DNA of 64,000 nucleotides from Cyanidiococcus yangmingshanensis (taxonomy: Eukaryota; Rhodophyta; Bangiophyceae; Cyanidiales; Cyanidiaceae): positions 310,001-374,000 of the forward strand of contig VWRR01000012.1 of NCBI GenBank assembly GCA_013995675.1, given 5' to 3'. Positions within the stretch are counted from its first letter, which is position 1. Every line of letters starts with the position of its first letter. The position numbers were made by a program, and so were the translations under genes. The notes beneath the pieces were generated by a model. That model saw nothing but the letters and a program-made list of their open reading frames with translations. It was not told where the DNA came from and ran no database searches. Positions 5,425 through 64,000 of this stretch are shown here, in pieces.

Positions 5425-6779
5425 GATAGCGTCTGAATCCCTTTCACCTAGAGCATCATGTACGCTCGATCGCGTCTAGCTTTACTGCATCATTGACGGC
5501 GTCATGCGCCTGAAGCGTACCCCAGCAGCGCCCCGAACATCGGGGTCTACCGTTTCTGCCCATGGCGCGCCGTCGTTTGGCGGCAACCCACGAGATGCTG
5601 GCCATCCTTGAAAACGCCAACTAATAACCCGTCTAGGGTCTGGGACCAAACAAGAACTAACGCTTCCAACCAGATCCTTTCAGTGACTCCTCCCTTTCTC
5701 TCAAAAATTGTCTGTGTATGATGAGGCGAACTTTTAATCAAGATTCGGATGCGTTCACGATCAAGCGAAAGGTAGCCAACAACATAAAGCGTTACTGGTA
5801 GCGTCTGATGCAAGCGATGCGCCCTCTCTCAGGTTTCGTGATCGATAGACTATGTAGCGCTGGACACTTTTTTATGACGTTCAGCCGTGGGCTTGGCAAG
5901 TCTGTTGCCACATACTGAAAACGCAACGAACAGCGAGACCAATGGCAACAAGGTATTCGTTTCATAATGCGGTCGCGACGGGTATACGAAACGTCCTGGG
6001 ATCGCCCGCTCAGGACAAGAGGCCACGTGCGATGGAAACAGCCTCGAAACCAAGGTGACTCGTGACCGAATCGCTTTTCGAATACACCTCGATCCAATGA
6101 TCTACAGTGATCAGCCAGGGCAGAAGCAAGCATCCTGCTCCGCAAAAACGTTGGTTTGCACCAAGCCACAACAAGGTGAGGACAACTCGAATAGCGTTCA
6201 AAATCTGAGTAGATTCCGGTCTCGTATGATCGAGGACGCATCGATCGAGCGCAGTTCTTTCGTGATGAACGGACATGAATGACCACCTATGGGACGTACA
6301 CGAACGTTGTTGTAAAGACCAAGGCCACCCAACGAGTGGCATACCGGGGGGAGGTGTCGACACGTCAAAGGTCTCAGCACCGTTCTGGTGTGCATGCGCT
6401 GCAGTGTATGAAACACTGAGCGGTACACGTGTGTTCAAACGAACGTCATGCAACGAATCGCAACAGAACCGTGCAGATAACCTCGACGCATTCGAATCAA
6501 AGCATCTGAATCAGAACTGGAGTTGCGTATGCAGTATTGATCCTTTGTCCGAAAACGAGCTCGATGAAGCGACTCTGAGAGCATCCCCTAGTCACCAGCC
6601 ATCCATGCCGTTGCACAGCCGAAACTGAGGACCAAACCTACAGCCTAAAGACGTCTTTGCGGCTGGTCGGCAGTGGACGAACACTGACACACCGCCCGTC
6701 GACGGTATCGCTCCCTGTTTCAAGGGTGAGCGTGTCTTGCTGCACCCCAATCGTGAGTGACGCCAGTATTTTTCTCCAA
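5425..6779. other. Divergent intergenic region (DHODH / M20 peptidase)
   Basis: 1.36 kb between two divergent genes, so it must contain both promoters. Only short frames are present (up to about 160 codons on the minus strand at 5792-6286), with no recognisable domain. No tRNA, repeat or clear TATA box was identified. Confidence 0.5.
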
Positions 6780-8559
6780 ATGAACCGGCGACTGTACCTG
6801 ATTCTCGTTATTGTTGTCAGTGTCTTGCTCACGTTGAGTGCGCTACGGTTCGCTCATCAGCTAAGGCGCTCGCGAAGCGTACCTGCGCTTTCTCGTGACG
6901 CTCAACGAACACTTGGACGAGCGAAACTGGAGTATGCGTCTGAGCGGGAGCGATTTCGGGAGTGGCTGCGGGAGCTCGTGCGTTATCGAACGGTCTCGAG
7001 CGAATCAGGCAACGATGCCGCCTTCTTGGCGTGTGCCCAGCGTTTAGAAGAGCTCGCTCGAACCCAAGTTGGCTGCCAAGTGACGCGTATCGTTCAGCGT
7101 CAGGGGCGACGGCCGGCTGTATTGGCACAGTGCACGCTCGGGAGGAGTAGCGAGCGCTCGGTGCTGCCGCAAGCTCCCTTTACGAGTTCAGAAAGGGCTC
7201 GCGCGATCCTCTTCTATGGCCACTATGACGTGCAACCCGCGGATGCTGAAAAGGACGGTTGGACCATGACCAGGGACGCTTTCGATCCAGTTGAGTTTGA
7301 TGGTCGTATTTATGCACGTGGTGTCAGCGACGATAAAGCTGGCGTGACGGCACTCTTGGCCGCATTGACCGTTCTCCGTCAGCGCCTCGCCATCGAGGTA
7401 GAGGAGCAGACCTCAGCACCGATGCGGCCGCTCATGGTGAAGCTTTTGCTAGAGGGTGAGGAGGAGATCGGCAGTCCCGGGCTAGAGGTTCTGCTGGAAC
7501 AACATCAAGACTTGCTCTTCTCAGTCCAGTGTGAGGAGGACGAGGCCGCTGCCTCCTGCAAGAACGCCAGCATTGAATTCATTGTCTCGGTCGATGGGGG
7601 CCAGGTAGACGATCGCACAGGCTCGCTTCTGCTCGGCTTGCGTGGCGCTGCTGCATTCCAAGTCAAGGTCCAGGGCCCCCAAAACGATGTCCATTCAGGC
7701 GCATGGGGTGGCGCCGTGCCAAATCCACTCCAAGGACTGGCGGGGCTGTTGGCGAGCCTCCATCACTCTGGGAACGGATCGGTTGCTATCCCTGGATTCT
7801 ACGCGGGCATTCCAGACCAAAACTGGTCCGGCATACCATTCCACGCACGCATTGGTGTTACGGGAGGCAGCACACATCCTGCCCTCAGAACGAGCCGCCG
7901 CGCAGCGTCTGGGCCTTCAACGACTCGGCGGCGGCGAGTACGCCCTCTTTCCGAGTTACCTTGCCCGCCTGTGGTTCCGACCGACGCTAGAAATCGTCGG
8001 CCTTGGCGGTGGCTATGCGGGTGAAGGTATTCGCGGCGCCATTCCCGCCCAGGCTCTCGCCAAAGTGCTCATGCGCCTGATCCCCGGCCAGGACCCGCAG
8101 CGTATCGCATCTGCTTTCTGCAATTCGGTACAGGAGTACGCGCGGAAACACCTCGAGCCACGCGGATTGCGCTGCAGCTGCCACAACCTCTCATTCTTCG
8201 CAAAACCGTTCGTGTCGAGCCCCGACGACCGCTTGCATTCGCTCCTGCGCGCGACGCTCCTGACAGAATACGGCTCCCGCGTGATTGCTGTTCATTCGGG
8301 CGCCAGCATCCCAGCCTTGAGCCTGCTTCATGAGCACGCAAACCGCCGCACTCGCCACAACCATCATCATTCAGCGCCGATTCCAGTCGGTGTACTCGCG
8401 TTCAGCCTCCCTTCAGATCAGATCCACGGACCAGACGAACACTTCTCATGGTCTAGATTCGATCGGGCGGTGCACAGCTATTTACATCTGCTGCTTCGCG
8501 CGCGCGAAGCTCCGCCAGCGATGGCACCTCTGCCCATCGCACATTCAAAAGCTGTATAA
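6780..8559 (+). CDS. M20 family metallopeptidase, membrane-anchored; frame changes once
   Basis: Zinc di- or aminoacyl-peptidase of the M20/CNDP-like group, probably releasing amino acids from small peptides. The ATG at 6780 gives MNRRLYLILVIVVSVLLTLS, a signal anchor, so the enzyme likely faces the lumen of the secretory system or is membrane-bound. Metal and catalytic motifs: FYGHYDVQPAD (His, Asp), RIYARGVSDDKAG (bridging Asp), LLEGEEEIGSPG (catalytic Glu and metal Glu), and SVDGGQ. The second half has YAGEGIRGAIPAQALAKVLM, LIPGQDPQ and a His-rich C-terminus with HSGASIPAL. The frame moves by +1 between about 7800 and 7870. Before it, VAIPGFYAGIP matches the family; after it, in the new frame, so does LPSERAAAQRLG onward. 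The last 107 bases overlap the end of the convergent pseudouridine synthase gene. An alternative TTG start 123 bases upstream is less likely. Confidence 0.88.
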
Positions 8560-9562: not shown

Positions 9563-11352
9563 CGTCAATGTCGTCGGTGTCAAGCTCCCGGGATGCAGTC
9601 AGCGGCACTGACGAAGGGGGTGCAAGCACCGAGTCACTCTCCGAAGACTCGAGTCGCGTGTCTGTGGCACGTAAGCGCCACGCACCGACAAGCGCCCCGT
9701 GACGCTGAGAAGCACCCAGGCGCCCCACGGGTCGGGCTCTCACGCGCGTACTCGACTTGGACCAGCCGTCCCCGCCCGTCGCACTGAGCGTGCGACTGAC
9801 AGGTTCCGGCTTGGTTTGCCAACCGTCACTGCAGTGAACTGAACGAGTCGTCAGCGGCGCCCTCAAGACGTGCGTGGCATGAACGCCCCTCTCAAGCCAG
9901 AGAGCGCTCGGCACCTGAGCGGACACGAATGCACTCATTGAGCAGTTTATCGTCAGGATCCAAGATTCAGAGCGCGACCAAACTCGGGTCCAGTTCCGCA
10001 TGGCGAGTCTCAGTGCCGAGACGCACTGTAGGCGGTCCGCGCTAGCACAAGCTCTGTTCCTGTTACAACCATGTTGGTGGTCGCCCTGATGCATTTCAGG
10101 GCCTGCGCAACGGTCATGCGCGCCGTGAGCCGGCCTGGAGACCCCGCGACGCCTCGCGTTCTCGATGCCGGTCGTTCATCCCAGTAGTCGTTGCTGATCA
10201 CACCAGGGAGTGACGAGTTCCATCCGAGCTGGGCTCCTCACAAGCCAATGAATACTCATGACATCCCCTTATTGAATGATGAACAGTGAAGTGCGCAAGA
10301 AGCGACTCACAACAAGCATCTGTTCAGGCGGGTGACCGCGGTTGCTTTTCGCTCGCGTCCAGGATGTAGCCTTGGTCGGCGAAGCACATCATTAGGTCAG
10401 TCTCCGAGCCAACGTTGCTCGGATGCGATTCCCCGGACATCTCGAACGAGTGCACCAAAACGCGCGATGGGGTGTACACATGCGATCAGGTCGGATACCG
10501 ACTCGGTCGCAACGCGCGCAACAAAGCGTTGCAACATGAAGGATCCGCCAACGAACTGGAAGGCCAGAAGACCCCATGGAATACATAGAACGTCCCATGC
10601 TGCTCTAGGCGATACACCCGTTCGCGCTTCCCATCGAGCGAATGCGCGTGCTGGCTCCGGTGCACCCGCAGTAAGCGCCACCAGAGCGCTCTCGCGCACC
10701 ATTCGAACAATGCTTATTGTCTGCTGGATGCCGAGACGTAATCCCAGCTGCACCAGAGCCAACGCCCTCGCCTACAAGCGACGTGCATATATCGCCGCAA
10801 CCTCATGAGCGCATTTTTTGAACAGGCACGACCATCTCGTCAAGCGCCGCACGCTTTCCAAGCTGCCAAATCTATACAAAACTACCACAAACAGCTTCTA
10901 TCAGAACGGCCCCGAGAACCAGACGCGCCTCAAAGCGTGCCTGAACCCGCATACATACTGCAGACATCACTGTATTCGAAAAGAAAGACCGCTCATCGTA
11001 CGAGCACGCTCGATAGCCACACCAGTGATGGTCGTTCCTGCTGACATAACCACTGATGATCGCTGAACAGTTCACGCCTAGTTCGGCAGCGCATACGCTC
11101 GGCTCAGCGTCGGTCGCGGGCTCCCAGCCCGGAACGATTTCCTCATGAAGACGCGCGCGCGCGCGCACTCAAACCGCTGTGCTCGTGGACGACGCGTTCG
11201 CAGACGAGGGCACTCAAGTTGGTAACCCTGATCGGCTCGGTACTCGAAATTGTGCGTTTACAGTGCTGCCTAGATCAGGCGCGCATTCCAGGTTTGATTG
11301 ATTTCGAACAGATTTTGTGCTCAGGTAGCGACCCGTGTTGCGCGGCTGATCG
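9563..11352. other. Intergenic region with a possible N-terminal extension and GC-repeat
   Basis: About 1.8 kb. The left part (9563-9938, minus strand) is open in a frame offset by +1 from the pseudouridine synthase and could encode its transit peptide. A 121-codon minus-strand frame at 10397-10762 (starting MALVQLGLRLGIQQTIS) is hydrophobic and Ala/Val-rich and might be a small protein, but no family is recognised and a plus-strand frame covers the same bases. An alternating GC run lies at 11152-11166. The right end is the 5' flank of the ERO1 gene. Confidence 0.45.
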
Positions 11353-12956
11353 ATGCGGTTTACAGCGTATCGTGCGAGTCTCACTGCAGCACTTGCGCTC
11401 TCGGTCGTCTTTATCGTTTTGGTTCAGGCACCAGGGTTGCGTGCAGGGATCGATACGAATGAAGAACTTGAGTTACCGCGCGTGTTTCAGGGACTGACCG
11501 GTCTGGGACTGCAGGGACGACTTGCAGACACCAAGTGCACGTTTGAGGCGTTGACGGCGCATAGTTTTCTTCCCCAAGACGATGCACTTTATGATCACGT
11601 CAGCTTGCTGACAAGCACCCTTTATTTTCGTATATTCAAGGTGGATCTATCTAAAGCGTGTCCATTCTGGGGTGGGACTGCAGCCACCTGTACAAGGCCG
11701 GACTGCTCTGTGCTGGTCTGTGACCCAGAACAGATCCCGGCCGTGTTGGCGAGGCGGGAGCCGTTCAGCGCAGAAACGATCCACCCCAAACATGGGCATC
11801 TATCCGCATGATTCGGCTGAGGCGGCTCTGGGACGGGTCGAGCGCCCCACTGGGTCACAGGCACTACCACCGTTCTTTGCACCGTATGCGCTCGAGGACG
11901 AGTCCGCTTGGACTGCTCCCGATAGTGACGAGCTCTCCGAATACGTTGACCTAACGCTGAACCCAGAGGGCTTCACCGGATATCAAGGGCAGCATATTTG
12001 GGACGCTGTTTACCGAGAGAACTGTTTTCGTCCGCAACTGTGTTCACGTGGCGCTACGGAGAGCAGCGATGCTGCTGACCTGATCGGTTTGGGGTCTGTC
12101 TCGACGAGCACACCGGTTCGTCCCGCAGCCTGTCGAGAGGAGCGTGTTTTCTATCGTTGTGTTAGTGGTATTCATGCGTCGATTAATGTACATATTGCCC
12201 GCCGGTACTTGTTTGGGCGCAACCGCTGGGGGCATCATACGCGTATCTACAGGGAGCGCCTTCGCAAACATCCTGAACGTATCGAAAACCTCTACTTTGT
12301 TTATGCATTAGTGCTCCGGGCACTGAACAAGGCGGCACCTTCGCTTGCCCATCGCTCAGACTACTTGACCGGAAATGAAACCGAGGATGCTCGGACAAGA
12401 CATCTCGTTGAGCAGGTATTATGGAACCCGCTCATTCGCGGTACCCGTCAGCGGATGCACTACGACGTTCGCCGAACACGAAATGTTCCGTGGATGCTGT
12501 GCGAACTGCTTGGTCCAGTTCCGTGCGCATTTTCGGAACATCAGCAAAATCATGGACTGCGTCGGTTGTGAAAAATGCAGGCTCTGGGGCAAACTGCAGT
12601 TTTTGGGTCTCGGAACCGCATTCAAGATCCTCTTCGCTGAACCGTCATACACTGCTCGAACAAACCGCTCTGATTTGGATCTCACTCGAAACGAAGTTGT
12701 TGCCTTGATCAATTTACTCAAAAACCTTTGTCTATCCATTAGAAGTATTCACGAAATGGAATGGATAATCGGCCAAGAGGCTCATCGACAACGTCTGTGG
12801 CTCTGTCTCGTGGCTGCAGTCTTGTGCGGCTTGGGATCCATTCTTATCCGCCTACTTGGCAGGCGATATTCTCTCCTACCGCGGCCAGATCCGTCGCAAT
12901 GCAACCGAGCGAAGACTGAAACGGAACTGCTAGAGTCGCCCAATCGAGTGCTCTAG
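11353..12956 (+). CDS. ERO1-type endoplasmic reticulum oxidoreductin; frame changes twice
   Basis: FAD enzyme of the ER lumen that reoxidises protein disulfide isomerase and passes electrons to O2. Start ATG at 11353 with a signal peptide (LTAALALSVVFIVLVQAPG). Family blocks: DTKCTFEALTAHSFLPQDD; ACPFWGGTAATCTRPDCSV, matching the shuttle-cysteine region; SEYVDLTLNPEGFTGYQG and HIWDAVYRENCF; VSGIHASINVHIARRYL (FAD binding); HFRNISKIMDCVGCEKCRLW, which holds the catalytic CxxC within CxxCxxC; and GLGTAFKILF. After the core comes a hydrophobic segment, LWLCLVAAVLCGLGSILIRL, suggesting a C-terminal membrane anchor in place of the soluble tail of many ERO1 proteins. The frame moves by +1 between about 11780 and 11815 and again between about 12435 and 12475. 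All three parts match ERO1 in order, so this is one gene. No other gene lies close by. Confidence 0.9.
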
Positions 12957-19187: not shown

Positions 19188-22100
19188 TCAGCGACGACTG
19201 AAAAAACGTGAGAGGCTACTCGAGCGACGTCGTCGAGGTACCGACCCTTCCGACGCCTCCGCCTGGGTCGCTATCGTCTCACCGGAGGCCGAGACACCAG
19301 GTCCCGCTGCAGACACCGCTCCATCGAGCAACCTACTCGGGCGACTACTCGTCAACGTAGACGCTGCTGCAGTACCACGACGACGGTGTTCGGTGCTGCT
19401 CCCTGGTCGCCACGCTCGACTCGTCTCCCCAGCGTACACGTGCTGACTGATCTCCCGTAGCGCCTCGAGCATTCGAGCTGGTGTCAGGACGTGCGTTGCA
19501 CCCAGGTAGACATTCAGCGGTAGATCAGCGCTGACCTCATACGCTACGCGCATCTCTGAGGCACACATCCCGCCAGCGATAAACACAATAACCCTTCGAC
19601 GAGGACGTTTGCTCTCCGGTATCCGTTCAGTTCCGTTGGGGAGCCCATCATCCTCGCTGGCACTCGACAACTCCCGCCCAGAGCCTCGTTCCAGATCATC
19701 GACCGAGTCAGAACGTCGTCGAACAACCGAGGATGAGCGTCGTCGTCGTACCGAGGCCGCTCGGTAGCGAGCACCAGCACGACCTGCAGTCTCGCGCTCT
19801 CGAGAAAGCGAGCGAGACCGACTTCGTGGGGTCCGATCCCTCGGTTGGTTGCGCTCAGACTGCTCTGGCTCGTCAGAGAGGAGCACCGGAAATCGGCTAC
19901 GTGAGAGACGGTTTCGAGCGACCGCTTCCAAAACCTCCCGTACGAAAGGAACGTAGCGTGAGAGATCGTAGGATTCCCCACGACTCGCTCGAAAGTATCG
20001 GAGCGCTCGTTCCGCCAACGCTTGTCGTTCTCCGGGTTCTTTCGCCAGACTGACACCCAGCCGAGCATGGAGTAATGCAGACACTAACCTCCCGTCCGAG
20101 ACCGACATCCTCCATGGCATCGAGCAGGTCATCCACATCTCGAGCGCTAACATCCATCGTTACCAGTACGATCGCCAGCAGACGCACCTTGTCCTCCAGG
20201 GGAACATGCTGGTCCTGCAGAATAAGAGCAGTACGTTGCGCTGCCTCTGTCGTCGATATCACGTTCCCGTGACAATCGACCAAACCATCAGCCAGATCCT
20301 GTTCGCATAAAGAGGTGCGCTGGAGATAGCGATCATTGAAGCGATGCATCAGACAGTCCAGGATATCCATATGAACCGCGTACTTGCTCAGCTTTTGCAT
20401 CTGATCATAGGAGATGGTGGACGAGCGCGAGCTGCTTGTGCTTGCGGTCGGATGACGACTCGATGGGGCACTGTCCAGCGTCGAGCGCAGGGCGTTCAGG
20501 GAATTGCTCTGTAGTTCGTCGCTAATCTCGCTGATGGCATCCGCGATATGCAGGTGACGAAGCCGAGCCCATGTCGAGTCAGCGTACTCGTCCAGAAAGG
20601 CTTCGCGTGTGACTCCCTCAGTCGATTCACCTTGTCGCACCATGTAGGAATACCGAGTGGTGCCGCTGTCCTAGCGCATCTGCGGAGAGCAAGTCGTTAC
20701 ACATAGCCTGATAGGTGTACTCGTGGAGAAACGGAGCTACCATATCAATCGATCGATCCAGAATGAGCAACATGGTTGGCATCACTGGAGTCGACTTGCT
20801 CGAGGACGCTCCATCGACAGGAGTCTGGAGTGCATCTGCTTGCAACTGGGCACCGCGCATGCCACCCGGAACATTGGCTTCGTAGTCTTTGATGGTGTCC
20901 ACGAGGGCCTCGGCGATCGCCTGGGCGACACCGCTCTCACTCCGTTGGTAACGAATGGTCGGAACCTCACCGATCAAATGACAGAGCGTGAGGAGGTTCT
21001 GCGCTACTGTGTGAATCAGCTCACGACGATCTTGTTGTGGTGTTGGCGTTGGCAGTGGCTCCCAACTTGGCGCCAGCGATACACGTTCGTCAAGGTCAGC
21101 GGCAACAGCGGTCGGATGAAACAGCGCTTGCAATGCATCGGTATAGTCGAGCGAGAAGATACGCTCCTCGATGGCCATGAAATCTAGGTTCAGCTCCGTG
21201 AAGGTCAGCAGACGTTGTACGAGGCTCGAAGATTGGCGAAGAAGGTTCAATAGTTCATCAGAGACCCGAGCCGTGGTGAAGACATGGGCAGCACGGTAGC
21301 GCGGCCCGGGGAATGTACTCGCATTCGATGCCAAGGTTGTTGAAGGCGCTCCAGTTCTGCGTCCGCGTGGTGTACGTAAGACCCCAGAACCAGATTGGGC
21401 ACGACCTGAGCTACCAGCTTGACGCTGAGCCCCTGACATCGTTGTCGTCGCATTGGACAACGTTGCAAAGCCGTTCGTCTCTCCCGAGCGATCCCGCGTC
21501 ATGGACGGATACATCCCGGTTGGGACGTCGGGAAAATCCGCAACAAGGCGCTCAAAGGAGGCGAGCTGTGGCGAGACGAAATAGACCGCAGACATGCGCG
21601 GTAGCGGCTCCCGTTCACTTCCAGAGACTCGACCACAAAGGCTCCTTCCTGAATCAGATCCGTTAGCCGACATGCCGCCGAGAGCACCGCCAATGAACGT
21701 CTGTCAGCGATAATCAGAAAGACCATTTTGCGGTTGGCTTCATGGAGTGCTGCCGATGAGGCATTCGCTTCGGCTTCAGCGGCACGAACGATCCGCATCA
21801 TTCCCTGAAGGATACGGGCTCTGGCCAACTCACGAAGCGTCACAACACCAGCGTATCGTGCTCGAGAGAGCGCATCACCAGTGGCCTCTCCATCCTGAGG
21901 TAGCGGTGGTGGAATCGGGCGACCGGAGCCACTTGTCAACCGCTGTGCTGCCGCTGCCGCTGCCATGGCGGACTGTTGCTCCCGATATTTGCGTGCTGCC
22001 GCCTCTGCCGCTTCCTTGGTTCGTTGCGCCTCCTGTTTCGCCCGCTGTCGTCGACATCGGCGCCATAGAAGGAAGCCGAAAATTGCTGCAAGGAGAACGC

Positions 22101-50065: not shown

Positions 50066-53058
50066 TTATGCGTTCAACAGCATGTTTAACGCCGCCTCTA
50101 TATCGCCTCGACATGACTCCAGAGCCTGTCGACTCGCGTCAGCAGTGAAACCCATGCTCATCAGCTGCGCTTGCTCGGACTCATACGATGTCGTCGACGA
50201 CGCGGGCGCTTCTGCAGAGGACCCTACTTGTGGGTTACGATTCAGCACCGTGCCGTCAAAGCGTTGGTCTGTACTCGCTGCCGACTGTGAAAGAGACGTC
50301 GTCTGGACTCGGTTCACCGCCACATCGGATTCGAGAAGCTGTCGATCAGCTGTCATCAAGTTTCGGCAGGTCACGTCCAAATCTTCATCTTGACGACGCC
50401 AGATTAGAACGAACGCCTGCTCCAAAGCACTGGGACTCGAGCCGGCGTCGAATACTTTCTCATCATTGTAGAGGAGCCAGCGTCTATTCCGGTACAAGTA
50501 CGCAACGTAATGGCCAGTATGCACCGAGGCTCCGAGATGAACCATTGCCGCCGCCAAGGTGTAACGAGTGTTCGTGGCCGACGCCAATGCGAAAGACGAA
50601 TCCGCGTTGCCGCTCGTCTCTGACGAACCAGTGCATGCCGTCGTGGCGGCTGCAGCTGCTGCATTTGATCCATCAAGGAGCCACTCAATCGCCCGCGGGC
50701 CGTCGTAATCATTTGTTTGAAGAGCAACGCGAGCCTGCTGAAGCGTAAAGCCCATGTCCAGCAACAGTTGCAGAGAGGGATCACTCGTCTCCGAGGCATC
50801 CGCAGTCGACATCCTGAAGGAAGACGACGGTTCCGATTTGGGTATTTGGCGCTCTGCCGGCAGGACGATCCCATTCGGTTTCATCGAGGACCAGCCAAGT
50901 CGACATGTCCAGGACGATTTCGCCGTTCGAGTTCTGTTCAAGACCTCGCTCAGGATCCGTCAAAGCCACTGCGGTTGTTACTTTGCGCGGGACCCAATCA
51001 TCGCCAGCTTCGAAGCGTCTCATATGCATCACCAGATAGGGTGGGCAGCGACTCGGGCTCTCCTTTCGCTCAGCCTGTCTGACTCGAGCGCTTGTTGAGG
51101 TCCCTCCACAGGCGGGGCATTGGAACGGCACTAGCTCGGAGGCGACACTCAGGTCGAGACATTCTGCTAGAGAGATGCGCTCCCGTACTTGCTCCATCGC
51201 CTCCGTTTTGCTACGAGTTATGTAACGACCGGAATCTGCTGGTGTTCCAATCGGAATATAGAGTGAGTTTGCCTCCGCTATCGTTGAAAGAACACGATGA
51301 CATTGCTGGCACTCTACTCGCTGAACCAACGGAAAGACAAAAAAGCGAGCAGGATCTCGTGTACCATTTCTACGAGCTTCTGCAGTGCAGCGACTCAGGA
51401 GGTACTCGAAAAACTCATGGGCGTCCTGCTGCCGCTTTGTCGCGAATTCGGGATGACCCTGTCCAACCAGGTTCTGGAGCATTCGCGGAGCGACACCTTC
51501 TGGTGGAATGTATCGACTGCCTGACTTGGACTGTCTCCGTCTGGCATCCCAAACGCTGGTGCTGAGCCCTGTTGCACCTGATGAAACATCCCCAACTTCC
51601 AAAGAAGGTATCATTCTGCGTCTGCTTCTCTTGAACGGGCTTGGCTGTCGTCGCACGTTCATGGCTGCTGGCAGTCGCCGACGTCAGCGTCTCCAGCTGG
51701 TCGATGCGTTGTGATCCACTCTCACGTTTCCAGTACCGCTGGCTCAACAGTCCATCTGCGAGTTTCCGCATTTGGCATTCGAAGCATTGCAGGGCATTTG
51801 ACGCACTGCAGCCCAGATAATGTCGATCGAGAGACTCGTTCAGGTAAGGAAATGGTAATGCGTGTGGCTCCTGATACCAACGGTACTGGGCGAACGCCAA
51901 AACATAGATACATTGGAGAACGCTCGACAGATAACACGTATTTCCCATATTTCTCATTCCAGTGGTGAGTAGTTCAGGCCCTAGGGAACTAGGATCCATC
52001 ACTCTCTTCAAGCTTGCATTGTCCTCGCCCGAGATCGAGCCAAGGTCACGCATGTTCAGCTGGATGTTCTGTTCAATCTCCATTTCTATAAGACTTTTCT
52101 CGGTCTTTTCCTCTCCATGAATATCGATACCAAATGCTCCTAGATGCCGCTCCAAGTCTGGATCAATGCGGAGTTCATCACAGGCGTAACAGTGCACATC
52201 AGCAGTGCCGTCGGCGGTGATGGTGCCGAGTTTTACTGCGACGGCGTGGTCAGCGTTCGAGCCACCACAGCTCTTGTAGTGTTCCCAGGCGTGATTGTTA
52301 CCGCCAGTGCCGTCAAAGTGTGTTCGTCCACAACCTAAGTGTCCGCAACTCAAACATAGCCAGAGGTTTTCTCGTAGGTCACATGCTGCACACTTTGCAG
52401 CCGAACGGGTCAGCGGCACATCGAGTTGCGTCTCCTCAAGGCGGGATACCATCAGCGTGTGCTCGCAGGGTTGCAGTTGGAGCTCCCATGACTGGACCTG
52501 CTCCCGATGAGACATCGTTGCTGCAGAAAACACCCTCTGTGCCAGCACTGTCCAACGATCGATATCACGAGCAGCGTACGTATGTGCACCGCGAGCTTGC
52601 TCCCACTGCTGAACTGAGGCGACCTCAGCGGTTGTGCTCATCAGCGGCCGAGCAACCCAGCAGTTATTGGTGATATCGTAGATTCCTTCGAGACGAACTG
52701 GCGGAACGGGAACGTCCAGGGCTTCTGTGCCACTGATGGTGTACCCGTCGACCGTGCGAACGACCTGAGGTGTTGGCCCGTTCTCCGTCGACGCTTCAAG
52801 CTCGGCTGATTCTGAAGCTTCAGAACTTGACGGTTGGGTTTCTAAATCCTCATCTTTTAGCGCGATTCTCTGCAAGTTGGCGTACAGGTTGTGTTTTGTC
52901 TTCTTCGTGTGTAGTTGGGCGTGTCTGCGAAACGCACAGAAACATTGCAAGCAGCTCAAACAGACGCAGACTCCGCCAGGGGAGTCCAGATCCTCAAAAC
53001 AAAGTGAGCATTCTTCCTTCTCGATGCAGTCCATCGATAACTCTGGAACACTTTCCAT
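50066..53058 (-). CDS. USP5/isopeptidase T-type deubiquitinase; frame changes twice
   Basis: Cysteine protease that takes apart free polyubiquitin chains. Order: cysteine-rich N-terminal region (CSLCFEDLDSPGGVCVCLSC); ZnF-UBP domain with LWLCLSCGHLGCGRTHFDGT and NNHAWEHYKSC, which binds the free ubiquitin C-terminus; Cys box MRNMGNTCYLSSVLQCIYVL; GHPEFATKRQQDAHEFFEYL; a CxxC pair in FPLVQRVECQQCHRV; first UBA (LQLLLDMGFTLQQARVALQT); His box GASVHTGHYVAYLYRNRRWL; second UBA at the extreme C-terminus (AQLMSMGFTADASRQALESC). In animal and yeast USP5 both UBAs lie together before the His box, so the second is displaced here. The frame moves by +1 between about 51540 and 51660 and between about 50790 and 50860, both in variable linkers. 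All parts are collinear, so this is one gene. ATG at 53058. Confidence 0.9.
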
Positions 53059-54504
53059 GATTTTCCGAGTCCTACTTACAACCTTATTCGAGTGTCTTCA
53101 GAAACACGAGCGTTCTACGTTCGTTCAAAGCGATCGAAGAAGAAGTCAATGGGACAGCGCGCCGTTAGAATGATTCCAACGAGCATCTATCTCTTGTCTG
53201 TTTTTCAGGGAGAAAGAGATCGACTGGGATACAAAATGGAACGATACACATCCGTTTACGCATACAGTTCTGATAGCAAGCTGCGACCAAGAGATTCTGT
53301 GACGAGCATCTATCTCTTGTCTGTTTTTCAGGGAGAAAGAGATCGACTGGGATACAAGATGGAACGATACACATCCGTTTACGCGTACAGTTCTGATAGC
53401 AAACCTCGATCTAGACGGAGACTCTTTTCTACTCCGCAGTACAGACCGTAGAGCGTCTTCGAGAATGTCGCTTGAGGATTGTGTACCAGGTGTAGGGCAG
53501 ATTCGGGGGCCAGCATGTCTGGCAGCTTTTGTCCGAGTTGCCTCGGTCCTATGGAGGCATTCATCCATACCGTCTGTGATTTTGCGGTTTGTCATTGACA
53601 TAAAACTATTTTCACCCATGATCCAGTTCAAGTGATGGAGTAATATCAGGCGATTCGGTGATCTCCTCATCGCATGTCATGCGTCTGTGGAAGGGTTACG
53701 CACATCGTACCGCTTGCAGAGACCAATTCTCAACGGCGAACGTACTCGCCACCCTTTTTATTCAAGTGCAGTCCCCGAAAGCGCTCTGTTCGCCGAGCTC
53801 CTGCAGAGCTTTGCTGCCAGCTTGAACACGCTGACCTGCAGACATCCAGCGAATCGGAATCATTCGAAGCTGGGGAGTAGACCCCCTCAAGCTGAATCAA
53901 GAGCACGGCACCGACCAAACGCAACGCACTCGGCCTTGTGCTGTCACCTCAATCTAGAGAATTCCGGGCACAAGCACGAGCAAGACAGCAAATACCTTCT
54001 TCCGAACAGACCTTTGAAGATGAAACGAACCAAGAGATGCAAACACTTACCCGCAGAAAACGAGAAAACAGCGCCAGCACACAACGCAAGGTTCTACGCT
54101 CAAGATCCAACCACCATATATACTCATCCGAGTGCGTTTAGAGACAGTGTTGGCCAACCGGCGGAACGACTTTGCTTCACAATAAGCCCCATAGCTGATG
54201 CCGCGCCCTCGGATCGCAACCAAAAATGAGCTTTTAATCCTGCCTAGCCAAGCGATGTCGGTTGACCATTCTTGACTTGACACGAAATCACCCACGAACA
54301 ACGTCGCTATGACTTGAACGTTTCACAGTCCGGTCATCATCAACCCCGTTTCGGTTGTTCTTGAGCGAGGCGTGCGCGCACGACACCAACCTGAATGCTT
54401 TCGGGCTTTCGCGGCCCCGAACGTCCTTGAGCATCGCGAGATCGCAGTCGCTCGATCTCGTCCTTGAACAGCAAGGCGAACGAAAACGAACTAGTTCCAT
54501 AAAA
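53059..54504. other. Divergent intergenic region (USP5 / plastid protein)
   Basis: 1.45 kb holding both promoters and the 123-bp tandem repeat. A 180-codon plus-strand frame (53687-54229) is Arg/Asn/Ser-rich with no recognised domain; probably chance. Confidence 0.45.
53179..53403. repeat. 123-bp tandem repeat, two copies
   Basis: Unit 1 spans 53179-53301 and unit 2 spans 53302-53403 (last 21 bases not repeated). Both start ACGAGCATCTATCTCTTG and differ at only two positions (aaaatgg/aagatgg and gcatac/gcgtac). The unit is exactly 41 codons. In the plus frame open from 53092 to 53451 both differences are synonymous, and the frame repeats TSIYLLSVFQGERDRLGYKM. The minus strand is open too. 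Each unit contains a pyrimidine-rich tract ending in TTTTTCAG, like a 3' splice acceptor. It lies about 120 bases upstream of the USP5 ATG. Confidence 0.92.
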
Positions 54505-59229: not shown

Positions 59230-59266
<37 letters not shown>

Positions 59267-59464: not shown

Positions 59465-62400
59465 ATGCCAAAAAGCCACAGTGGTACGCCGAGAAAGCCG
59501 CAGGGGAAACGCAGCCGCAAGAACGCTGAGAGCGCTGCGTCGAGTGCACTTCCACTGATGTCTGCATCCTCTGTGGCTACTGCGAGTACACAGTATCGGA
59601 TCACGGTGACCACTGGAGATGTATGTCCAGAGTCGGCGCGATTTTTCGTTTACATTAGTCTGGTCGGTTCACTTGGGGCGACGCCGGAGGTTCGGCTGAA
59701 TACACGTGCCCAAGCTGACCGTTGCGATAGCGTTTGCCCTCTGCCTCATGATTCGGCCAAGTCAGACCTTGTGCCTCTGGTGGAGAAGAGCACAAACGTA
59801 TTTATCTTGAATGAATTTCTGGACATTGGCTCTCTTGACAAGGTGATCATGCGTCTGGAGAGCGAGACTGGTCTTGCCGTCGACTTGGAAGCTGTGGGCT
59901 GGCTCCTCGAACGCGTCGCAGTGGAGAACGTGTGCGAGGGTGCGAAAGAGAGCGGCACAGAGTGGGCTTTTTCTGTCAATCGATGGGTCAATCAGGCCAC
60001 GGATCATATTATCGAATTGCAGCGAGCGATGGCCACTGAAATTTTGCTCGACGATCGCGGAAGCAAAGTGGTGCGTGTGCGTCTCGCGATGCATCATTTA
60101 CCGAGCGAGCTCGCCCATGAAGAGATCTACGTATCGGGATCGATCCCAGAGCTCGGTAGTTGGAACGTGGATCGAGCAGTTCGCATGGAGAAGGTACAGC
60201 CGGTTGCTCTGGCGCAGAAGGAAAGCGGCCGGCGAAGCCTCAATCGCAACTCTTGGCATGGCGACTGGGAGTACTGCTTTACTTTGGACCCAGAGGCTGC
60301 CAGTGACTTTGATTACAAGTATTTTATTCGGAACCATCGAACAAATGCAATGGTTTGGGAGCACGGGCCCAACCGCAAAATGATCATCGAGCGCATTGCG
60401 AGCGGCGGAAACGATGCCAACATCACGCTACGCTTGAACGATCAATGGAATACCCCCACCCTCTGTCGTAAGGTTCTCAATTCGTACCTCGTGAATGGCA
60501 TCATGAGTCCTTTGAGCAAGATCCTCGGGTCCTCCGAGGATGGCGTCATGGCTGCAGTACGGCGCATTCGAAATGAGCTCGAGGAGATGCGTCGGGAGAA
60601 CACAACCTTGCGGAGCATGTTGCAGGCCCAATCGGATAGAAGCTCACCTGCAAAGCTCTCTGATTCCCCACTTGATCGCGTTGCAGTGGATGCTGCTGGC
60701 GATGTAGGCACTTTGCCGGCTGCTGTCGAGAAGATCAATCTGTCGCAGCTCTCTTTCCATGCCATTGAGCAGGCGCCATCAGCAGTATCCGCACACACCG
60801 GGCTTGCATTCCAGCTGCGCCAGACACATGAGCAAACGCAGATGCTTCACGCCATGCTTGAACAACTTCGCGTAGAAGCACGTGCCTCCAGCAAATCTGT
60901 CGCTCATCTCATTGGCGAGCAAGGTGAGGAGCTGCAGCGAGCGGTCAAGCGTTGTCAAGCTGCTCGCGAACAAGCCATGGCAGTTGTGGCGCAAGGAATT
61001 TCAATGGCGCCGGAAGCTCTTTAACCGGGTCCAGGAGATCACTGGAAATATTCGCGTCTTTTGTAGGGTTCGTCCGACGCTGCCAAGCGAGGTTGATCTG
61101 GCCACCAGTCAGGTTATTGACAGCGACAAGATCGTTGTTCGACAGAAGGTATTCGAATTCGATCGTGTTTTTGGCCCAGGACACACTCAAGAACAGGTCT
61201 ATGAGGACACTTCCCCTCTGGTTACCTGCGCTATGGATGGTTACAACGTGTGCATCTTCGCATATGGACAGACAGGGAGTGGGAAGACCTATACCATGAC
61301 CGGACCTCCCGAGTCACGCGGCGTCAATCATCGGGCGCTGGCTGAGCTTTTCCGTCTCTGCGACGAACGTTCCGCCGCATTCATTTACAGCATCCAGGTG
61401 AGCATGCTGGAGATCTACAACGAATGTATCCGTGACTTGGTCACTGGCAAGACGGACAATCGCCTGGAGATCAAACTCGGGCCCGATGGAAACCCATTCG
61501 TCCCGGATTTGATTTGGATTCCCGTTGAGAGCCTTCAGCAAGTCTGGTCTGTAATTGACGCCTGGGACACGAAATCGTGCCCAGGGGAGCACGCGAATGA
61601 ACATTCACTCGTCGCGTTCCCATCTCATCGTGTCGATCAGTGATTGAGGCGACAAATCGAGACACTGGTGACAAACTTGCCGGAAAACTCCACCTGGTTG
61701 ATTTGGCGGGCAGCGAGCGCGTTTCGCGCAGCGAAGCTGAAGGGGAGCGCCTTCGAGAGGCGCAACACATCAACAAGAGTTTATCTGCGCTGGGCGACGT
61801 GTTCATGGCGTTGCTCGCAAAACAGTCTCACGTGCCGTATCGCAACAGCAAGCTCACCTTCCTGTTACAGGATTCACTCGGCGGTGACAGCAAAACGCTC
61901 ATGTTCGTGAATGTTAGCCCTGCGGCTGCCGATGAGACCGAGACGTTGAGCTCACTCATGTTCGCGCAACGAGTGGCCAAAGTGGAGCTGCCACAAGCCA
62001 GCCGACATGGCGAAAGCGCAACGGTGGCAAAATATATGAAAGCAGCTGCCAAGGCTCAGGAGGAGATCCGAGCGCGCGATGAGGAAATCGTCCAGCTGCG
62101 CAAACAGATCGAGCAGTTGCGCAGCCAAGTCGCTAGCACACGTTCCGCTCCTGCTCTGATGCAATCTGCACCATCCAGTTCAAGCTTGCGGCGGCGGTGC
62201 AGTACGACGTTCGCAACGTCCAGCGAGCACGCCCGCCCCACCAGTCTCCATGAACTGAACCAGACTCAAGAAGATTGCTTCGCCGCGGACGATAAGGAAA
62301 ACCACTTGGACACGTCGTCTGAGCCGCGGCGGTTCGAGTGCCCAGCTGTCTCCGCCCAAAAGAGCAATAACGGCGACTCGCTGCACGTCGATGGGAACCA

Positions 62401-62755
62401 AAATCAGTCCAGTCGCTCCGACGAGGAGACAAGACCGGCCAATACGTTCGTGGGAACCCGCGCCAGACGTAGCCAGAGTGCTGTGTCTATCTCCTCTGGA
62501 CATGCGGCAAGCGAGACGTCGACGCAATCTACGAACTCGGCCGCCGCTTTGCAACCGCGGTCGCGTCGTTCATCCTCGCACCAATCATCGAACTGCATAC
62601 GCTCTCCATTGGCTGCTGCCAATCGCGACAACGACCAAACCTCGAGACCATCGCCGACGGTCCCATCCAAGACGACGACCGCCAAAACCAAAGCCACAAC
62701 TGCCGCGGAGCGGTCCAGTACCGGTACCATCCAGCGCTTCGCCAATTCGATCTGA
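59465..62755 (+). CDS. Kinesin-14 with PLAT and CBM20 domains; frame changes three times
   Basis: Minus-end-directed microtubule motor by family. Domains in order: basic leader ([19 protein letters not shown]); PLAT/LH2 domain about residues 43-175 ([20 protein letters not shown] to [10 protein letters not shown]); CBM20 starch-binding domain about 200-320 ([20 protein letters not shown], then [10 protein letters not shown] and FDYKYFIRN); coiled coil ([15 protein letters not shown] and later); kinesin-14 neck [18 protein letters not shown]; motor with [12 protein letters not shown]-loop [10 protein letters not shown], switch I NIHSSRSH, switch [22 protein letters not shown] and [18 protein letters not shown] coiled coil and a Ser-rich tail follow. 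Frame changes, each one extra base: near 60984 (TT), near 61562, and near 61640. Each is fixed by conserved kinesin text on both sides. The ATG at 59465 is the first in frame. The tail may continue in another frame past 62755. Cargo is unknown; starch is suggested by the CBM20. Confidence 0.9.
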
Positions 62756-63243
62756 TCCTGGAACGAAAACAACAACGACGGCGAGACTGCCTCGCCACGA
62801 AGCCGCAGCGCCCGCCCATGGTTCTGGTCAACGAGTCGTTCTGTTGCGAGAGACGCGAGCCGACCTCCTGCGGCGCCAAGCGAACGAGGCCAAACGCAAC
62901 GGCACCCCAAGTCGTGTTCACTACGCCTTTGGGTCCCGCATAGAACGAAGCATCACGGGCACCGATTCGGCCTCACCAAGTGATTCGCGCCGGCGCCCTT
63001 CAGGTAGCTGACAAGAACCCCCAACCCAAACGCACCCGAAGATGCTCACCGATGAGTACCTAACCCCCCCGAATCGAAGGCGAACGCCATTTCGGTTTCA
63101 GCGAAATATTCAGTGCGCCCCTCTCTATCGCTTTCCCTGCCATGATGGTTGTCGCGTGCACGATCACAACGAAGCGATGCTGGAACCGTTGCAGTGATCA
63201 GGAGCCCATGGGCATTCCGTCCGTGGTTTCGTCAACGCGCCAG
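62756..63243. other. Intergenic, convergent gene ends
   Basis: 488 bases after the kinesin stop. A frame offset by +1 from the kinesin tail stays open to 63011 (with RRQANEAKRNGTPSRVHYAF), so the kinesin tail may end there. Nothing else recognised. Confidence 0.45.
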
Positions 63244-64000
63244 TCAGGCTCGTTGGTCGCTGCACCGGCAACATGCCTTGTCGTCGTCGTCGTCGAGTAC
63301 CCAGTCGCTGAGGACGACGACAGCGTCGCTCCTGGCCTTGTTCCGAAATGAAAACCACCCGATAGCGCAGGGAACGTCATCGACACCAAAGCCGAAACCG
63401 TCCCCTTCCGATGCCGTCATGGGCACCAGGCCCTGAATTTCGTCCTCCTCCTCGACGTCGAAATAGGTACGTAAAATATGCTGCGATTTGAAGTAAATAT
63501 CCTCATTGACGTGATTCTGGAGCATTTCGATCTTCTCCAGACCACCTACCTGTTCGATGAGGGACGCGTATTCGTTCGCGGGTTGGTGCATTCGTTCCCG
63601 CTCTCGTTCGCCCGAGGCGAGTATATTCTCCAGGCCCTCGAGGACGACGATGAGTAGTTTGCTATCATTCACCAGGAGCAGGTCACACATGGGTTTGATA
63701 CAACCTTGCATCACTAGGGCGCGTATCTGAGGGTCAGTGCCACCGGCAGTGGCGTTACTGATAGCCCAGGCTGCTTCTCGTCGAGTCTCAAAGTCACTTG
63801 TCGCCAACAGGGACACCAGCGGGGGCACAAGACCGTTCTCAATGACCAGTTCGATCTGTTCAATCGTGCCAGCAGTGATATTGCTCACCGTCCAGCAGGT
63901 CTCCTTACGAATGAGCCGCTTGGCTGACGACAGCAGGCGCAAAAGATAGGGCAGCGCACCGCAGTCCAGCACAGTCTGGGTCTGTTCATCGGTGCCAGTG
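63244..64000 (-). CDS. Importin alpha, C-terminal part (cut by window edge)
   Basis: Adaptor that binds nuclear localisation signals and importin beta. The gene is cut by the right edge; only the last ARM repeats and tail are seen. Motifs: VLDCGALPYLLRLLSSAKRL, KETCWTVSNITAGT, RREAAWAISNATAGG and CIKPMCDLLLVNDSKLL, the W/N-containing ARM pattern of the minor NLS site. Then YASLIEQVGGLEKIEMLQNH and EEEDEIQGLVPM, the acidic end. Family members usually finish soon after a GGFNF-like motif. Here the frame reads CAIGWFSFRNKARSD and runs 35 more residues, while a +1 change in the CCC/GGG run at 63358-63360 would read CAIGGFHFGTRPG. So the annotated C-terminus is doubtful and the stop may be elsewhere. 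The N-terminal importin-beta-binding domain lies outside the window. Confidence 0.93.
   Translation of the reverse strand, partial: TGTDEQTQTVLDCGALPYLLRLLSSAKRLIRKETCWTVSNITAGTIEQIELVIENGLVPPLVSLLATSDFETRREAAWAISNATAGGTDPQIRALVMQGCIKPMCDLLLVNDSKLLIVVLEGLENILASGERERERMHQPANEYASLIEQVGGLEKIEMLQNHVNEDIYFKSQHILRTYFDVEEEDEIQGLVPMTASEGDGFGFGVDDVPCAIGWFSFRNKARSDAVVVLSDWVLDDDDDKACCRCSDQRA

Follow-up and report, generated by a model that had tools for sequence, protein, structure and literature searches.

A single gene of the red alga Cyanidiococcus yangmingshanensis encodes a kinesin-14 in which a PLAT-like domain and a CBM20 starch-binding domain precede the motor. The gene lies at 59465–63011 on the plus strand of the window, the 64,000-nucleotide stretch of genomic DNA that was analysed, and we regard the gene and its domain architecture as secure. 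It is a red-algal version of a kinesin-14 with a carbohydrate-binding-type domain. The arrangement occurs in many red algae and suggests, short of proof, that in some of them starch grains are held or moved by a motor. The best single account of the cyanidiophyte protein, to which we assign a probability of about one in two, is a minus-end motor by which starch granules in the cytosol would be tethered to microtubules, perhaps during division.

Domain architecture and its place in the literature

Read along the plus strand, the protein comprises a PLAT-like domain, a CBM20 domain, a linker with a presumed coiled coil, a kinesin-14 motor and a tail of about 320 residues. PLAT, CBM20 and a kinesin-14 motor in one gene had been proposed from the nucleotide sequence, and both the domain profiles and the relatives bear this out, with the coiled coil still presumed. 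The N-terminal lead (59465–59593, +) holds an 11-residue basic stretch that, by eye, is a possible nuclear signal; a similar stretch opens the related protein P0003, and the records of P0001 and P0002 start later. The PLAT/LH2-like domain follows (59594–60019, +). Here the profile places the window protein just below the cut-off (PF01477, 21.8 against 23 bits, E 3.2e-4), but 27 of 32 relatives match the family and P0003 passes the cut-off at 24.3 bits, so the PLAT assignment is supported through the relatives and is tentative for the window's own copy. Queried against PDB sequences, the PLAT stretch of the window protein gave nothing meaningful (best E 0.43); for the corresponding domain of the Galdieria partita copy, lipoxygenase, polycystin-1 and Rab6-interacting protein 1 chains were recovered. 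A PLAT search of the source genome came back empty and missed even the present kinesin gene, and its control was silent too.

The CBM20 domain (60041–60454, +), with residues W233, W268, K285, W298 and N303, lies well above its Pfam cut-off (PF00686, 49 bits against 23.3, E 5.5e-13), and this assignment stands as predicted. It is followed by a conserved linker and presumed coiled coil (60455–60985, +), recognised in the alignment and heptad-like by eye. The kinesin-14 motor (60984–62005, +) contains the neck GNIRVFCR, the P-loop, switch I and switch II, runs through three frames with two internal breaks, and matches PF00225 in both of its pieces (about 151 bits each, E about 4e-44). The motor is internal, with about 320 residues following it in P0001. 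In the window, the tail (62006–63011, +) is of low conservation and carries DDKEN, then RRQANEAKR...YAFGSR near its end, with a break near 62729. The YAFGSR motif also stands near the C-terminus of P0001–P0004 and P0015–P0017 and is kept from Cyanidiococcus to Rhodosorus, and YAFG occurs after the motor in 21 of 32 relatives.

Part of this architecture is already in print. Five C. merolae kinesins were listed by Richardson et al. (2006), including CMT097C, a kinesin-14 of 1160 residues with a coiled coil, an LH2 domain, an internal motor and EST support (PMC1434745, Table 2). LH2 is PLAT, so the PLAT half of the architecture has been in print since 2006. Among the open-licence papers searched, CMT097C turned up in this one only. 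CMT097C resembles the present gene in its motor class and internal motor position, and in having LH2 (PLAT-like in the present gene) and a coiled coil (presumed in the present gene); it is most likely the C. merolae orthologue, but CBM20 is not listed for it in that table (PMC1434745). The C. merolae protein itself was not among the matches listed in our similarity searches, and we do not read this as an absence of CBM20. The original prediction knew of no described kinesin with both domains. This is too strong in one respect, as the combination already stands in public records as precomputed domains and LH2 was tabulated in 2006 (PMC1434745); it holds in another, for no paper that names CBM20 on a kinesin or describes a starch-binding kinesin was found among the open-licence papers searched.

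Relatives and phylogeny of the motor

The best relative, P0001, is 94% identical over 95% of the query, followed by P0002 (69% over 95%), P0003 (68% over 86%) and P0004 from Cyanidium caldarium (56% over 78%). All four have precomputed kinesin and CBM20 domains in their protein records. A search with the P0004 motor added Galdieria partita, G. sulphuraria, Rhodosorus marinus, Porphyridium purpureum, Gracilariopsis chorda and many transcriptome records (best 120 of 8000), whereas the PLAT–CBM20 part of P0004 retrieved P0001–P0005 only (5 of 6561 candidates). Relatives beyond P0001–P0005 were thus reached through the motor only, and the counts below hold among the matches listed (best 120 of 8000). 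P0005, which is 89% identical to P0004 in the PLAT–CBM20 part and whose later part is apparently out of frame, was excluded from the counts, and P0006–P0010 were not counted as family.

Among the 32 aligned relatives (alignment A2), domain matches at E ≤ 0.01 were obtained for kinesin in 32, for CBM20 in 31 and for PLAT in 27 (best PLAT 9.8e-17). The sole relative without CBM20, P0028, has a record that appears to begin inside that domain. Motor hallmarks, namely the neck GNIRVFCR, the P-loop and the two switch motifs, with DLAGSE among them, are invariant in all 32. The architecture, for which a search in other red algae had been suggested, is therefore present in cyanidiophytes, Galdieria, Rhodosorus, Porphyridium and Gracilariopsis. 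P0037 and P0044 (Rhodosorus) and P0047 (Purpureofilum) belong to a second kinesin-14 type of red algae, whose start resembles PLAT. The two Rhodosorus records of this type show a weak CBM20 match (22.8 and 24.8 bits, cut-off 23.3); the Purpureofilum sequence, which groups with these two, has no CBM20, but its start looks cut.

The window motor groups with kinesin-14s and is separated from the kinesin-5 and kinesin-12-like outgroups, with a support of 99, in a quick larger tree that carries a long-branch warning. Likewise, the PDB motors closest to that of the Galdieria copy are kinesin-14s (E 5e-82 and weaker), with KCBP, KIFC3, Kar3 and Ncd as the best matches; to our knowledge, none of these four has CBM20 or PLAT. 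By these sequence features the motor would be minus-end directed. In a tree of 43 motors, the red-algal sequences, including the second Rhodosorus/Purpureofilum type, occupy one side of a branch (support 100/96.9), and Cyanidiales plus Galdieria stand against the remaining red motors (98/90 for that group). The red-algal clade fits inheritance from an early red alga.

A comparable described design is that of the plant malectin-domain kinesins (MDKIN/KIN-14E), which are likewise kinesin-14s with a carbohydrate-binding-type domain ahead of an internal or central motor (PMC7094084). They differ in having malectin in place of PLAT and CBM20, and together with KIN-14S and Chara they form a separate motor clade (100/100 in the 43-motor tree). 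Even with E values as high as 10 allowed, malectin (PF11721) did not match the window pieces, nor does it appear in the family lists of the 32 relatives. Holding the red and malectin clades as sisters was not rejected (p-AU 0.117). An earlier test of red and malectin motors as one clade left out KIN-14S and Chara and ended in rejection (p 1e-8), but it was badly posed, because KIN-14S falls within the malectin group. When the second Rhodosorus/Purpureofilum type was taken out of the red rows, the remainder gave p 0.06 as one clade.

The glucan site of CBM20 and what the motor may carry

The CBM20 domain of the window aligns to a PDB amylase (1qho, E 1.8e-4) and a glucoamylase (1ac0, E 2.2e-4). 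Starch site 1 of glucoamylase consists of W543, K578, W590 and N595, and W233, K285, W298 and N303 of the window protein stand at these positions. All 8 cyanidiophyte rows have the full set W/K/W/N (window, P0001–P0004 and P0015–P0017, representing about three lineages). A third tryptophan, W268, is kept in all 28 rows of the alignment used here (A3), which omits five of the 32 A2 rows (P0028, P0033, P0043, P0050 and P0079), four of them with CBM20. Judged by sequence, the key starch-binding tryptophans, the loss of which had been named as a sign against the prediction, are not lost in the window protein. Taking P0002 as reference, and giving values for P0001, P0003 and P0004 in that order, CBM20 is 92, 89 and 65% identical and the motor 90, 87 and 75%, against 71, 57 and 43% for PLAT, 57, 49 and 30% for the coil and 44, 33 and 39% for the tail. 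CBM20 thus comes close to the motor in conservation, which argues for strong constraint on this domain, site included, in these algae.

Outside this group the site is less stable. W/K/W is kept in Rhodosorus (two rows) and Porphyridium has F/K/W (one row), and the remaining 17 of 28 aligned rows are without both the lysine and the second tryptophan. When the four CBM20-bearing relatives outside the alignment are added by eye, these two residues are missing in 21 of 31 CBM20-bearing relatives. Gracilariopsis chorda is the only named alga among the 21, and the tree suggests that the others come from similar algae. To judge by the alignment, a large group of relatives has kept the CBM20 domain and changed its site. 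Starch binding is therefore unlikely as a function throughout the family, and the starch cargo of the original prediction survives in a narrower form: the residues kept in every cyanidiophyte row make it plausible there, but less so for the 21 relatives with an altered site.

We propose that the N-terminal half serves as the cargo adaptor of the kinesin-14. The coiled coil would dimerise the protein, and the motor, from its kinesin-14 features, would bind microtubules and step or crosslink toward the minus end. CBM20, given its retained site residues, would grip alpha-glucan chains on cytosolic starch granules, with PLAT offering a second contact, to a membrane or a protein. Granules would thereby be held in place, collected or distributed along microtubules, most probably at about the time the cell divides, and the level of the motor could be set through a KEN motif in the tail. 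KEN can act as an APC/C signal. It is found in the tail of the window protein and of all seven cyanidiophyte relatives, rows that are mutually related, and shuffled tails yield it in 0.6–9.3% of cases; it follows the motor in 2 of the 25 other A2 rows and is absent from 23. It also occurs somewhere in 10 of 17 malectin kinesins examined. The motif may work as a cell-cycle signal in the cyanidiophyte kinesin.

Red algae keep their starch in the cytosol. We know of no motor that was shown to carry or anchor starch, and none was found among the open-licence papers searched. C. merolae is reported to be without myosin or dynein (PMC1434745), which leaves kinesin-14 as the candidate minus-end motor. 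Cytosolic starch combined with this reported absence makes the placement and inheritance of granules a question. Our own searches of the source genome for dynein and myosin were empty and their controls equally silent, so they are not used as evidence. In C. merolae, where genes can be targeted (PMC7169423), this protein makes the question approachable through a single gene that could be tagged or deleted and through individual residues that could be changed.

Several observations favour a different role or fit it equally well. First, the basic N-terminal stretch is as compatible with a spindle protein as with a starch motor. Second, MDKIN2 of plants is located in the nucleus, spindle and phragmoplast, a location that a spindle role would match just as readily, and that report does not settle whether polysaccharide is bound by the malectin domain of MDKIN2 (PMC7094084). 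Finally, the KEN motif would suit a division protein, and the 21 of 31 relatives that have lost the glucan-site residues retain those of the domain fold. The main rival explanation is therefore a kinesin-14 of the spindle or of cell division whose PLAT and CBM20 domains are protein-binding or structural modules, with glucan binding ancestral or incidental. We consider it possible but rather doubtful for cyanidiophytes, where the full site is present in every row and CBM20 and motor show similar conservation. A membrane or vesicle motor, with PLAT binding lipid or a small GTPase and CBM20 acting as a glucan sensor that ties motor activity to carbon status, seems decidedly improbable. It would account for the PLAT domain of 27 of 32 relatives and for the lipoxygenase, polycystin-1 and Rab6-interacting protein 1 matches of the Galdieria copy, and the reported lack of myosin and dynein in C. 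merolae (PMC1434745) agrees with it; PLAT, however, is far less conserved than CBM20 in Cyanidiales, and that of the window is below the cut-off.

A starch-tethering motor has partial parallels elsewhere. Mammalian STBD1, a glycogen receptor, likewise links an alpha-glucan store to a different cell structure by means of a CBM20, but, as described, it has no motor and acts in glycophagy at membranes, so the likeness is in mode of action only (PMC12785236). In the same genome, a laforin-like protein (L007, 1701–3034, −) combines two CBM20 domains with a dual-specificity phosphatase and has no motor. More tentatively, the tether could be extended to the whole group, as a polysaccharide-granule motor dedicated since the red-algal common ancestor, in which CBM20 would grip starch and the kinesin-14 would partition cytosolic starch at division under cell-cycle control, with a malectin-bearing counterpart in land plants and a grip later altered in one large red-algal group. 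On this view, the gripping of carbohydrate by kinesin-14s may be ancient in algae and plants or may have arisen more than once. We hold this wider proposal to be unlikely as a whole.

Extent of the gene and its frame breaks

The span of the gene was determined by tblastn alignments between the window and three intact relatives (P0001, P0002 and P0003). Residue 1 of P0003 falls at 59465, P0001–P0003 are collinear with the window to about 62999, and a frame-0 stop lies at 63011. The end at 62755 given in the original prediction is wrong, as the stop is 256 bases further and the last stretch matches the conserved C-terminus of the intact relatives. In the same alignments the gene forms five collinear stretches (59465–60985, 60984–~61563, 61564–61656, ~61640–62728 and 62730–63011), with four one-base frame changes near 60985, 61563, 61640–61656 and 62729, two of them within the motor, instead of the one predicted. 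The intact relatives, P0001 best of all, run in a single frame and thus indicate one gene; with their identical domain order they exclude a chance union of two genes.

The frame breaks are likely the result of assembly error, since other genes of the window are broken alike; a gene truly broken in this strain is the less likely alternative. One-base breaks are widespread in the assembly: the Sec1 (19191–21703, −), ubiquitin-protease (50069–53097, −) and ERO1 (11350–12953, +) genes are each split over three frames, with profile positions in order. An M20 peptidase gene (6579–8556, +) is split over two. Short reads were used to correct the C. yangmingshanensis genome (PMC9812998), which counts against a simple assembly error and suggests that the window perhaps comes from another, less corrected assembly. 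Introns are rejected as the source of the breaks, because the relatives align straight through with no missing stretch; 36 introns are reported for the whole genome (PMC9812998). Programmed frameshifting is not favoured, given that Sec1, ERO1 and the ubiquitin protease show the same kind of splitting, each over three frames. That the kinesin is a pseudogene or an artefact without function, as its four frame breaks might imply, deserves hardly any credence, for the relatives are intact in one frame, the same type of break in the Sec1, ERO1 and ubiquitin-protease genes points to the assembly, and CBM20 and motor stay close to the intact relatives across the breaks.

The window, mostly of 52–60% GC, belongs to a genome of 12.07 Mb in 20 contigs. 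A run of a 4-base repeat (CAGC) occupies 59230–59265, some 200 bases before the kinesin begins, and tail to tail with the kinesin lies an importin-alpha-like gene (Arm repeats and Arm_3), of which the window holds the C-terminal part (63247–63999, −).
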